From positions 63,595,823 to 63,659,822 of the forward strand of contig CATQJL010000112.1 of assembly GCA_958299035.1 (NCBI GenBank): a stretch of DNA of 64,000 nucleotides. The letters run 5' to 3'. Origin of the DNA: Cylicocyclus nassatus. Taxonomy: Eukaryota > Nematoda > Chromadorea > Rhabditida > Strongylidae. Below are positions 1 through 64,000 of the stretch, piece by piece (within the stretch, counting starts at the first letter, position 1; each line of letters opens with the position of its first letter). Made by a program: the position numbers and the translations under genes. Below the pieces are notes generated by a model, which was given only the letters and a program-made list of their open reading frames with translations, was not told where the DNA came from and did not search any database.

Positions 1-13
1 TTAACATTCTCAC

Positions 14-85
14 GGCCGAGTGGTCTAGTGCTATGATTCTCGCTTTGGGTGCGAGAGGTCCCGGTTTCGATCACCAGCTCGGCCC
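14..85 (+). tRNA. tRNA-Pro(TGG) copy 1, C19/A64 variant
   Basis: Carries proline to CCN codons (UGG anticodon). Acceptor GGCCGAG/CTCGGCC with C73; anticodon stem CTCGC/GCGAG and loop TTTGGGT are intact. G19 is C, losing the G19-C56 contact, and G64 is A opposite C50. TTTT terminator; 151-type spacer. Doubtful function. Confidence 0.85.
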
Positions 86-129
86 TACGTTTTGCGAATA
101 GTGTTCTCACAGAAAACGAGGGATTTATC

Positions 130-164
130 TCATCGTCTAAGATGAAGGGATTTAAAATTCTCAC
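130..164 (+). promoter_or_regulatory. Conserved 35-bp 5' flank (representative copy)
   Basis: The stretch from TCATCGTCTAAG through GGATTTAACATTCTCAC directly precedes the tRNA in all unit types; here the reading is AAAATT rather than AACATT. It is the most constant spacer part, as expected if it holds the transcription start and 5' leader. No recognised upstream element can be named. Confidence 0.5.
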
Positions 165-171
165 GGCCGAG

Positions 172-182
172 TGGTCTAGTGG
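172..182 (+). promoter_or_regulatory. Box A of tRNA-Pro (representative copy)
   Basis: The 11-mer TGGTCTAGTGG (tRNA positions 8-19) matches the Pol III type 2 box A consensus TRGYNNARNNG. The same element sits at +7 to +17 of every copy. Variants at G15, G18, G19 and the missing G at 9/10 fall inside it. Confidence 0.85.
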
Positions 183-214
183 TATGATTCTCGCTTTGGG
201 TGCGAGAGGTCCCG

Positions 215-225
215 GTTTCGATCAC
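215..225 (+). promoter_or_regulatory. Atypical box B of tRNA-Pro (representative copy)
   Basis: GTTTCGATCAC (positions 52-62) occupies the box B site, whose usual consensus is GGTTCGANNCC. G53 is T and C61 is A, so pairing is kept as T53-A61 but two consensus TFIIIC-contact bases are changed. This is so in all 235 copies; the T52 subfamily changes a third. Confidence 0.75.
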
Positions 226-240
226 CGGCTCGGCCCTACG

Positions 241-244
241 TTTT
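241..244 (+). terminator. Pol III terminator (representative copy)
   Basis: TTTT begins 5 nt after C73 in the context TACGTTTTGC. The alternative context TACTTTTTG gives five T. About ten copies lack any T-run here, as noted in their entries. Confidence 0.88.
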
Positions 245-516
245 GCAGGTACTTCCTTCTTCAACGCAGTGCGTACGCCGTCGCCTATAGTTTAGCGCTT
301 CAACGTAACAGAAGAATAGCTAGCATTTTGAAATTTGAAGTGGAGCCCTCACAAAAACCAGCAGATAGGTCCTTGTTTGCACATTGCGTTAGGAAGAATT
401 GTAAGATTTGCTTTCGAATCAAGAAATTAAACTTTTAAACTTTTCGGGAACAGTGTTCTCACAGAAGACGAGAGATTTATCTCATCGTCTAAGATGAAGG
501 GATTTAACATTCTCAC

Positions 517-588
517 GGCCGAGTGGTCTAGTGGTATGATTTTCGCTTTGGGTGCGAGAGGTCCCGGTTTCGATCACCGGCTCGGCCC
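517..588 (+). tRNA. tRNA-Pro(TGG) copy 3, T27 variant
   Basis: C27 is T, giving a T27-G43 wobble at the top of the anticodon stem. TTTT terminator; long spacer. Confidence 0.9.
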
Positions 589-868
589 TACGTTTTGCAG
601 GTACTTCCTTCTTCAACGCAGTGCGTACGCCGTCGCCTATAGTTTAGCGCTTCAACGTAACAGAAGAATAGCTAGCATTTTGAAATTTGAAGTGGAGCCC
701 TCACAAAAACCAGCAGATAGGTCCTTGTTTGCACATTGCGTTAGGAAGAATTGTAAGATTTGCTTTCGAATCAAGAAATTAAACTTTTAAACTTTTCGGG
801 AACAGTGTTCTCACAGAAGACGAGAGATTTATCTCATCGTCTAAGATGAAGGGATTTAACATTCTCAA

Positions 869-939
869 GGCCGAGTGTCTAGTGGTATGATTCTCGCTTT
901 GGGTGCGAGAGGTCCCGGTTTCGATCACCGGCTCGGCCC
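869..939 (+). pseudogene. tRNA-Pro(TGG) copy 4, one-G deletion
   Basis: 71 nt: one G of positions 9-10 is missing, shortening the acceptor/D linker and breaking box A. Stems and anticodon otherwise intact. TTTTT terminator; long spacer. Confidence 0.8.
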
Positions 940-1219
940 TACTTTTTGTATGTACTTCCTTCTTCAACACAGTGCATACGCCGTCGCCTATAGTTTAGCG
1001 CTTCAACGTAACAGAAGAATAGCTAGCATTTTGAAATTTGAAGTGGAGCCCTCACAAAAACCAGCAGATAGGTCCTTGTTTGCACATTGCGTTAGGAAGA
1101 ATTGTAAGATTTGCTTTAGAATCAAGAAATTGAACTTTTATACTTTTTGGGAACAGTGTTCTCACAGAAGACGAGAGATTTATCTCATCGTCTAAGAAGA
1201 AGGGATTTAACATTCTCAC

Positions 1220-1291
1220 GGCCGAGTGGTCTAGTGGTATGATTCTCGCTTTGGGTGCGAGAGGTCCCGGTTTCGATCACCGGCTCGGCCC
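1220..1291 (+). tRNA. tRNA-Pro(TGG) copy 5, consensus
   Basis: Consensus sequence. TTTT terminator; 278-bp unit. Confidence 0.95.
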
Positions 1292-1456
1292 TACGTTTTG
1301 CATGTACTTCCTTCTTCAACACAGTGCGTACGCCGTCGCCTATAGTTTAGCGCTTCAACGTAGCAGAAGAATAGCTAGCGTTTTGAAATTTGAAGTGGAG
1401 CCCTAACAAAAGCCAGCAGATAGGTCCTTGTTTGTACTGTCACAGAAAACGACAGA

Positions 1457-1463
1457 TATATCT
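1457..1463 (+). promoter_or_regulatory. TATA-like element at -41 (representative)
   Basis: TATATCT lies 41 bp before the next tRNA in units that follow a 278/281-type spacer. Units following a long or 151-type spacer have TTTATCT at the same place. Upstream TATA-like motifs can modulate Pol III genes in several eukaryotes; a function here is only inferred. Confidence 0.3.
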
Positions 1464-61753: not shown

Positions 61754-61825
61754 GGCCGAGTGGTCTAGTGGTATGATTCTCGCTTTGGGTGCGAGAGGTC
61801 CCGTTTTCGATCACCGGCTCGGCCC
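61754..61825 (+). tRNA. tRNA-Pro(TGG) copy 227, T52 variant
   Basis: T52 opposes C62. TTTT terminator; 151-type spacer. Confidence 0.86.
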
Positions 61826-61904
61826 TACGTTTTGCGAACAGTGTTCTCACAGAAAACGAGAGATTTATCTCATCGTCTAAGATGAAGAGATTTAACTTTC
61901 TCAC

Positions 61905-61976
61905 GGCCGAGTGGTCTAGTGGTATGATTCTCGCTTTGGGTGCGAGAGGTCCCGGTTTCGATCACCGGCTCGGCCC
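61905..61976 (+). tRNA. tRNA-Pro(TGG) copy 228, consensus
   Basis: Consensus sequence. Terminator TAGGTTTTGC; 275-bp unit. Confidence 0.95.
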
Positions 61977-62179
61977 TAGGTTTTGCATGTACTTCCTTCT
62001 TCAACACAGTGCGTACGCCTATAGTTTAGCGCTTCAACGTAACAGAAGAATAGCTAGCGTTTTGAAATTTGAAGTAGAGTCCTCACAAAAAGCGCCAGCA
62101 GATAGGACCTTGTTTGTACTCTCACAGAAAACGACAGATATATCTCATCGTCTAAGATGGAGGGATTTAACATTCTCAT

Positions 62180-62251
62180 GGCCGAGTGGTCTAGTGGTAT
62201 GATTCTCGCTTTGGGTGCGAGAGGTCCCGTTTTCGATCACCGGCTCGGCCC
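62180..62251 (+). tRNA. tRNA-Pro(TGG) copy 229, T52 variant
   Basis: T52 opposes C62. TTTT terminator; 151-type spacer. Confidence 0.86.
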
Positions 62252-62330
62252 TACGTTTTGCGAACAGTGTTCTCACAGAAAACGAGAGATTTGTCTAATC
62301 GTCTAAGATGAAGGGATTTAACATTCTTAC

Positions 62331-62402
62331 GGCCGAGTGGTCTAGTGGTATGATCCTCGCTTTGGGTGCGAGAGGTCCCGGTTTCGATCACCGGCTCGGC
62401 CC
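62331..62402 (+). tRNA. tRNA-Pro(TGG) copy 230, C26 variant
   Basis: T26 is C between D and anticodon stems, probably tolerated; flank ATTCTTAC. TTTT terminator; 353-bp unit. Confidence 0.91.
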
Positions 62403-62683
62403 TACGTTTTGCATGTACTTCCTTCTTCAACACAGTGCGTACGCCGTCGCCTATAGTTTAGCGCTTCAACGTAACAAAAGAATAGCTAGCATTTTGAAAT
62501 TTGAAGTGGAGCCCTCACAAAAGCCAGCAGATAGGTCCTTGTTTGCATATTGCGTTAGGAAGAATTGTAAGATTTGCTTTCGTATCAAGAAATTAAACTT
62601 TTTAAACTTTTTGCGAACAGTGTTCTCACAGAAGACGAGAGATATATCTCATCGTCTAAGATGGAGGGATTTAACATTCTCAT

Positions 62684-62755
62684 GGCCGAGTGGTCTAGTG
62701 GTATGATTCTCGCTTTGGGTGCGAGAGGTCCCGTTTTCGATCACCGGCTCGGCCC
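62684..62755 (+). tRNA. tRNA-Pro(TGG) copy 231, T52 variant
   Basis: T52 opposes C62, with a 281-type spacer (recombinant class). TTTT terminator. Confidence 0.86.
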
Positions 62756-62964
62756 TACGTTTTGCATGTACTTCCTTCTTCAACACAGTGCGTACGCCGT
62801 CGCCTATAGTTTAGCGCTTCAACGTAACAGAAGAATAGCTAGCGTTTTGAAATTTGAAGTAGAGTCCTCACAAAAAGCGCCAGCAGATAGGACCTTGTTT
62901 GTACTCTCACAGAAAACGACAGATATATCTCATCGTCTAAGATGGAGGGATTTAACATTCTCAC

Positions 62965-63036
62965 GGCCGAGTGGTCTAGTGGTATGATTCTCGCTTTGGG
63001 TGCGAGAGGTCCCGGTTTCGATCACCGGCTCGGCCC
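62965..63036 (+). tRNA. tRNA-Pro(TGG) copy 232, consensus
   Basis: Consensus sequence, the second consensus copy followed by a 151-type spacer. TTTT terminator. Confidence 0.95.
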
Positions 63037-63115
63037 TACGTTTTGCGAACAGTGTTCTCACAGAAAACGAGAGATTTATCTCATCGTCTAAGATGAAGGG
63101 ATTTAACTTTCTCAC

Positions 63116-63187
63116 GGCCGAGTGCTCTAGTGGTATGATTCTCGCTTTGGGTGCGAGAGGTCCCGGTTTCGATCACCGGCTCGGCCC
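63116..63187 (+). tRNA. tRNA-Pro(TGG) copy 233, C10 variant
   Basis: G10 is C opposite T25, weakening the D stem and box A. Terminator CACGTTTTGC; 353-bp unit. Confidence 0.86.
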
Positions 63188-63468
63188 CACGTTTTGCATG
63201 TACTTCCTTCTTCAACACAGTGCGTACGCCGTCGCCTATAGTTTAGCGCTTCAACGTAACAGAAGAATAGCTAGCATTTTGAAATTTGAAGTAGAGCCCT
63301 CACAAAAGCCAGCAGATAGGTCCTTGTTTGCATATTGCGTTAGGAAGAATTGTAAGATTTGCTTTCGAATCAAGAAATTAAACTTTTTAAACTTTTTGCG
63401 AACAGTGTTCTCACAGAAAACGAGAGATTTATCTAATCGTCTAAGATGAAGGGATTTAACATTCTCAC

Positions 63469-63540
63469 GGCCGAGTGGTCTAGTGGTATAATTCTCGCTT
63501 TGGGTGCGAGAGGTCCCGGTTTCGATCACCGGCTCGGCCC
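63469..63540 (+). tRNA. tRNA-Pro(TGG) copy 234, A23 variant
   Basis: G23 is A opposite C12 in the D stem. TTTT terminator; 353-bp unit. Confidence 0.86.
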
Positions 63541-63821
63541 TACGTTTTGCATGTACTTCCTTCTTCAACACAGTGCGTACGCCGTCGCCTATAGTTTAGC
63601 GCTTCAACGTAACAAAAGAATAGCTAGCATTTTGAAATTTGAAGTGGAGCCCTCACAAAAGCCAGCAGATAGGTCCTTGTTTGCATATTGCGTTAGGAAG
63701 AATTGTAAGATTTGCTTTCGTATCAAGAAATTAAACTTTTTAAACTTTTTGCGAACAGTGTTCTCACAGAAGACGAGAGATATATCTCATCGTCTAAGAT
63801 GGAGGGATTTAACATTCTCAT

Positions 63822-63893
63822 GGCCGAGTGGTCTAGTGGTATGATTCTCGCTTTGGGTGCGAGAGGTCCCGTTTTCGATCACCGGCTCGGCCC
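63822..63893 (+). tRNA. tRNA-Pro(TGG) copy 235, T52 variant
   Basis: T52 opposes C62. TTTT terminator; the spacer runs to the window end and its GTTTTGAAATTTGAAGTAG wording suggests a 281-type unit. Confidence 0.86.
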
Positions 63894-64000
63894 TACGTTT
63901 TGCATGTACTTCCTTCTTCAACACAGTGCGTACGCCGTCGCCTATAGTTTAGCGCTTCAACGTAACAGAAGAATAGCTAGCGTTTTGAAATTTGAAGTAG

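Follow-up and report, generated by a model that had tools for sequence, protein, structure and literature searches.

A satellite-like tandem array of tRNA-Pro(UGG) genes in the genome of the nematode Cylicocyclus nassatus

Clusters of tRNA genes have been surveyed across eukaryotes (PMC2888827), and several systems are described in which such genes are repeated in tandem. In Phytophthora infestans, arrays of one tRNA gene include 271 tRNA-Cys(GCA) copies with a 513-nt unit; such single-gene arrays were reported to be near-identical, unequal crossing-over was proposed, and copy numbers were checked by read depth (PMC9584435). The tRNA-Pro(UGG) family of this species is also expanded, and its codon is infrequently used (PMC9584435). 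The Hydractinia genome contains tens to hundreds of near-identical tandem non-coding RNA (ncRNA) units, among which tRNAs of each of the 20 amino acids are represented (PMC11067881). A 92-kb tRNA satellite array is described in maize (PMC10335936), 27 tandem tRNA-Pro genes are known in Arabidopsis (as cited in PMC12652284), and Entamoeba keeps its tRNA genes as tandem arrays with up to five tRNA genes per unit and short tandem repeats between them (PMC2652664). Here, we analyzed a 64-kb stretch of the Cylicocyclus nassatus genome (hereafter the window; contig CATQJL010000112.1, or C112, positions 63,595,823-63,659,822), taken from an assembly of 514,686,895 bases in 369 contigs. The whole window (positions 1..64000, + strand) is an interior piece of a tandem tRNA-Pro(UGG) array of about 252.5 kb, located at C112:63,553,694-63,806,216.

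All 235 tRNA genes that ARAGORN called in the window lie on the + strand. The anticodon was TGG, i.e. Pro(UGG), in 234 genes. The remaining copy (50592..50663, + strand) has a Pro body in which TGG is mutated to TTG, and was called tRNA-Gln by ARAGORN. There are 36 distinct gene sequences, and one 72-nt consensus is common to 102 of the 235 copies; a typical example, at 165..236 (+), forms a full cloverleaf and scores 53.4 bits in Rfam. At the gathering level, Rfam returned 193 matches in the window versus 235 for ARAGORN, and the 150 matches listed were all RF00005 (tRNA). When the first 12 kb were searched with E values up to 1, each of the 41 matches was a tRNA, and ARAGORN lists 43 genes there. 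One tRNA gene is therefore repeated head to tail in large number, as in monomeric arrays of the P. infestans type.

The 234 spacers of the window fall into four length classes: 77-79 nt (n=64), 154 nt (n=10), 203-209 nt (n=62) and 279-281 nt (n=98). Representative spacers, all read on the + strand from gene calls and spacer lengths, are located at 86..164 (79 nt), 31411..31564 (154 nt, internally shortened), 1292..1497 (206 nt, internally shortened) and 237..516 (280 nt, full length). A single consensus fits all of them, with an identity of 0.914-0.989 over the bases present. This continuity leaves no room in the window for another gene or transposon. The 79-nt spacer looks like the 281-nt form minus about 201 nt lying between two TTTTGC motifs, which were read by eye. 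Each shorter class seems to have arisen from the long spacer by internal loss, although this is less clear for classes other than the 79-nt one; a breakpoint analysis of the spacer deletions found no simple junctions. Altogether, 128 of the 234 monomers in the window are distinct. At its score threshold, Tandem Repeats Finder (TRF) reported only periods of 149-432 in the window, and no short-period repeats.

Open reading frames (ORFs) of up to 175 aa occur in the window, and a coding interpretation was rejected because the matches of the two ORFs searched centre on the tRNA part and because most monomer lengths shift the frame. Fourteen protein matches were obtained with window ORFs spanning the tRNA; five of them carry organism names, all five being nematodes. 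On these matches and on the nematode cuticle-collagen matches of the genome, an oomycete origin of the sequence was rejected. The nematode spliced-leader sequence was searched for in the window and not found. Array patterns had no match in collections of viruses and genomes, which may omit records near the window's own genome.

The array lies inside the 89-Mb contig C112, and both of its edges were located, past the two ends of the window. The first recognisable piece of a unit is found at about C112:63,553,694, and the end of the final gene is at 63,806,216, giving a span of 252.5 kb. Five 10-kb samples taken from the array outside the window (L009, L010, L015, L016 and L017) contained 31-36 tRNA genes each, all of them Pro(TGG) except three with a TAA anticodon. 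A further sample, L018, contained 16 tRNA genes and the 3' edge of the array. No Pro genes were present beyond the edges in 16 samples (L011-L014, L019, L020, L026-L028, L034-L040), and no N bases were found in the seven Pro loci checked. The three TAA (Leu) anticodons are carried by Pro bodies and are located at L016:1876, 5777 and 7625. About 2 kb ahead of the array, a lone tRNA-Ser(GCT) gene is encoded by the minus strand (L046:2013-2094).

Roughly half of the 252.5 kb was covered. The density of 402 copies in 114 kb extrapolates to a total of about 890. Copy number was also assayed with an exact 31-nt piece of the gene, which matched the genome 606 times in forward and 6 times in reverse orientation (control: 0). 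Scaling the 606 forward matches, which may include dispersed genes, by the share of copies that match led to a total of about 876. Among the matches listed, four were dispersed and all others lay within the C112 Pro array. The array is thus estimated to hold about 880 tRNA-Pro copies. The original prediction described 235 co-oriented copies of tRNA-Pro(UGG) only, separated by four discrete spacer classes, without any other gene or transposon, in an array running past both ends of the window. This description was borne out, except that one of the 235 copies is the TTG variant; the only transposon-like element encountered sits outside the window, at the 3' edge.

The array grew by duplicating blocks of several copies. 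In the window, an exact-repeat search revealed two tandem block duplications on the + strand: an exact 3,234-bp repeat at an offset of 3,186, covering 11 monomers (23727..30146), and an exact 2,684-bp repeat at an offset of 2,628, covering 9 monomers (29281..34592). At the 3' edge (L018), seven genes make up a 2,666-bp block that is present in duplicate, the two versions differing by two mismatches and one gap (99.9% identity). The latter block carries a 737-bp transposon-like element (L018:2523-3259 and 5189-5926) with terminal inverted repeats of about 24 bp, whose inverted ends are GTGTGGACCCCGGCCAGCTTCCCA, and with a possible TATA target duplication. The element lies in an array spacer and was multiplied with the block, leading to two full copies and a third that is cut off by the end of the sampled stretch. 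Moreover, divergence between long monomers was 0.020 within 1 kb and rose steadily to 0.038 beyond 40 kb. Block duplications and divergence rising with distance would be expected if unequal exchange or replication slippage had been at work. The locus shares with satellite DNA a great length of tandem repeats, higher-order duplication of blocks and homogenisation on a local scale.

The repeated gene has the features of a functional tRNA-Pro(UGG) gene. In the array consensus all counted stems pair, and its Rfam score of 53.4 bits compares with a cut-off of 29. The cloverleaf, the anticodon, both internal promoter boxes (A and B) and a downstream T-run are present. The A box, TGGTCTAGTGG, fits the RNA polymerase III (Pol III) A-box consensus. 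The 53-61 pair of tRNAs is nearly universally G-C; here it is U-A in all 235 window copies and also in the dispersed genes, which makes the B box atypical at two places, though recognisable. A run of at least four T is found within 25 nt downstream in 225 of the 235 window copies. Translations of ORFs lying over tRNA genes, read in this way for six of the 11 forward matches, imply that U53 and A61 would both be present in Necator and A61 in Strongyloides, but not in Caenorhabditis brenneri.

Dispersed single copies of the gene were also characterized. Four of the six reverse-strand matches were examined and proved to be such copies; three agree with the array consensus at all 72 nt and the fourth is one base off. 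Likeness to the array ends about 10 nt outside the gene, with one exception, a 25-nt match (84%) near L049. Each of the four has TTTT a few bases downstream, and the 3' trailer of the dispersed genes differs from that of the array copies. Since three of these four genes share the consensus and all four have their own T-run, the array consensus appears to be that of an ordinary tRNA-Pro gene. This identity is the strongest sign that it represents a working gene sequence.

All pairs, the key residues and the length are kept in 124 of the 235 window copies. Among the overlapping damage classes, at least one broken pair was found in 85 copies, a changed key residue in 27 and an insertion or deletion in 13; the most frequent damage was a broken 52-62 pair (47 copies). 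Among 181 long units, taken from six loci as well as the window, segregating sites were as dense in the Pro gene (28/72) as in the long spacer (109/280; p 1.0). Restricting the comparison to the window gave 13/72 for the gene versus 44/196 for the spacer (p 0.50). Selection at the level of the single copy was thus weak or undetected.

The Pro array is accompanied by other tRNA arrays in this genome. A tandem Lys(TTT) array with a 201-202-bp unit was found in samples from C305:73.770-73.951 Mb (L021, L022, L042, L043) lying 180 kb apart; two 10-kb samples held 50 and 48 Lys genes, and the array was absent from samples at C305 73.740, 73.980 and 74.020 Mb. In the Lys array, segregating sites numbered 10/75 in the gene versus 20/126 in the spacer (p 0.69). 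On C223, at 25.41, 45.11 and 48.74 Mb (L023, L024, L025), a 438-bp unit combines an Arg(TCG) and a Cys(GCA) gene that point in opposite directions. No similarity was detectable between the Pro unit and the sampled Lys, Arg/Cys and Val loci. Additional tRNA genes were observed on C304 (64% GC; Tyr-Gly-Thr-Trp) and on C25 (four tandem Val genes; L001-L006 for both contigs), and these may be bacterial contamination. In other genomes, two ORFs of one sequence record (P0003 and P0006) and a Necator protein (P0012) each appear to run across a pair of Pro genes, with spacings of about 150 and 230 nt as estimated by eye. Such read-through of nearby genes suggests that small tandem Pro groups may exist in those genomes.

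Altogether, we consider with a probability of roughly 75% that the locus is a tRNA-Pro satellite, which expands by exchange and keeps a functional consensus, and whose copies are individually dispensable and partly expressed or expressible. As in satellite DNA, the array would expand when repeats misalign and undergo unequal exchange or replication slippage, and homogenisation would keep the functional consensus common while many copies decay. With hundreds of copies in the array and further genes dispersed in the genome, selection on any one copy would be too weak to be seen clearly. Given an A box, an atypical B box and a downstream T-run, many array copies may be open to transcription by Pol III. 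Just as compatible with the data is an array that is largely silent, in which case the tRNA would be supplied by the dispersed genes and a minority of the array copies. The original prediction regarded the locus as more like a satellite than a gene cluster. It is indeed satellite-like, with about 252 kb of head-to-tail repeats, block duplications, decay of similarity with distance and no clear constraint per copy. However, setting it apart from gene clusters finds no support, because its consensus is that of three of the four dispersed genes and 124 of 235 copies are intact.

Several observations weigh against this interpretation. In long units, nucleotide diversity (pi) was 0.017 in the gene versus 0.038 in the long spacer, and over all monomers it was 0.015 in the gene versus 0.070 in the 50 nt upstream. 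Segregating sites were also somewhat fewer in the gene than in these 50 nt (26/72 versus 26/50, p 0.10; in long monomers 13/72 versus 16/50, p 0.09). Lower diversity and fewer segregating sites than upstream suggest that some selection on the gene is possible. Furthermore, the copy total is an extrapolation from the 402 sampled copies, and the satellite interpretation is drawn from the assembly sequence.

An alternative explanation is dosage selection, in which the array was amplified and kept for a high need of tRNA-Pro(UGG), for instance for proline-rich cuticle collagens. In line with such a need, PF01484, the N-terminal family of nematode cuticle collagens, has 150 scored matches in the genome, versus none in 14 bacterial and archaeal controls. 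In nine pooled collagen frames, CCA, the codon read by UGG, accounts for 264 of 555 Pro codons (CCT 150, CCC 128, CCG 13), and it outnumbers each of the other Pro codons in eight of these frames. These frames run from stop to stop and are not gene models; they come from ten loci examined, of which one (L060, 6% Pro) was left out. The nine proteins closest to one of the collagens (E up to 1e-30) belong to Strongylus, Ostertagia, Cooperia, Ancylostoma, Necator and Angiostrongylus, one being unnamed. Strongylus and Angiostrongylus belong to Strongyloidea, which suggests a nematode of that group or close to it. A cuticle-collagen match some 11 kb outside the array on its 5' side (C112:63542231-63542377, L059) may be there by chance. 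Weaker matches lie farther away, at C112 63438341 and 63514603, and the frame at the second (L060) is not collagen-like. The exact consensus kept by 102 of the 235 copies also suits a dosage effect. However, 111 of the 235 copies are damaged, segregating sites are equally dense in genes and long spacers, and intact dispersed tRNA-Pro genes exist. Moreover, Lys(UUU) and Arg(UCG)/Cys arrays also exist, and the same collagens contain few Lys codons (76) and 18 CGA among 124 Arg codons. In P. infestans, the Pro and Ser families with the greatest expansion read codons that are in infrequent use (PMC9584435). The parallel arrays, the damaged copies and this precedent disfavour dosage as the main cause; it has modest support and, as the driving force, we consider it unlikely.

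It is less likely still that the array serves a structural role, its dense Pol III promoters forming a boundary, nuclear-organisation or replication-pausing domain to which tRNA supply would be incidental. Such roles are discussed for tRNA clusters (PMC2888827, PMC9584435) and for the human 1q23.3 array (PMC4041453), and the T-runs do persist in 225 of the 235 copies; but the lack of similarity between the Pro unit and the Lys, Arg/Cys and Val loci means that no shared non-gene element was seen. Multiplication of the units by the assembler is very improbable. Exact repeats of up to 3.2 kb can cause expansion or collapse, and the P. infestans authors warn that tRNA counts differ between assemblies (PMC9584435). 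However, 94% of the 2,001-base words of the window are unique, mutations, insertions or deletions and the transposon provide landmarks inside the array, and different tRNA arrays are present on other contigs. Finally, we give hardly any credence to units that would be tRNA-derived mobile elements, such as short interspersed nuclear elements or terminal-repeat retrotransposons in miniature of the Helenus type, standing in tandem by chance. The long terminal repeats of Helenus in Puccinia triticina are indeed described as carrying tRNA-Pro-TGG-like sequences (PMC10886601), but all window units are joined head to tail by one continuous spacer, and what the four dispersed copies examined share with the array is essentially confined to the gene and some 10 nt of its flanks.

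Beyond this locus, a broader proposal can be made tentatively, with the odds rather against it. Strongyle-type nematodes might keep part of their tRNA set as gene satellites on the 100-kb scale, with near-neutral copies and exchange keeping the consensus functional. This would provide an expandable reserve of tRNA dosage, or Pol III chromatin domains, differing between species or strains. Whatever its origin, the array constitutes a natural series of hundreds of tRNA copies with known mutations, for which a reference gene exists elsewhere in the genome. The number of copies of a tRNA family that are used in a cell thereby becomes testable, as does the action of selection on a gene with hundreds of counterparts.

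The literature searched, where some queries retrieved almost nothing, did not reveal a comparable tRNA array in a nematode. The idea that hundreds of copies of one isoacceptor are without parallel is not supported, given the 271 tRNA-Cys genes and expanded tRNA-Pro(UGG) family of P. infestans and the arrays of Hydractinia. The estimated 880 or so copies exceed the largest single-isoacceptor array size stated in that literature (271), and the host is an animal. Like the tRNA-Cys array of P. infestans, the Pro array places hundreds of head-to-tail copies of a single tRNA gene on one chromosome, in a genome containing other tRNA arrays; it differs in its nematode host, in a copy number estimated from the assembly, in its four spacer classes and in its many damaged copies. 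With Hydractinia it shares an animal genome in which tandem ncRNA arrays include tRNAs, but those arrays span many ncRNA types, whereas the arrays found here are of Pro, Lys and Arg/Cys genes, with Pro spacers of 77-281 nt. The Entamoeba organization is different, since the nematode unit holds a single gene and TRF reported no short-period repeat. Further likenesses are the maize tRNA satellite, of tens of kb, and the tandem tRNA-Pro genes of Arabidopsis, both in plants and both smaller than the nematode array. Thus, tandem arrays of a single tRNA gene were already known, and the Pro array is a large animal example of them.

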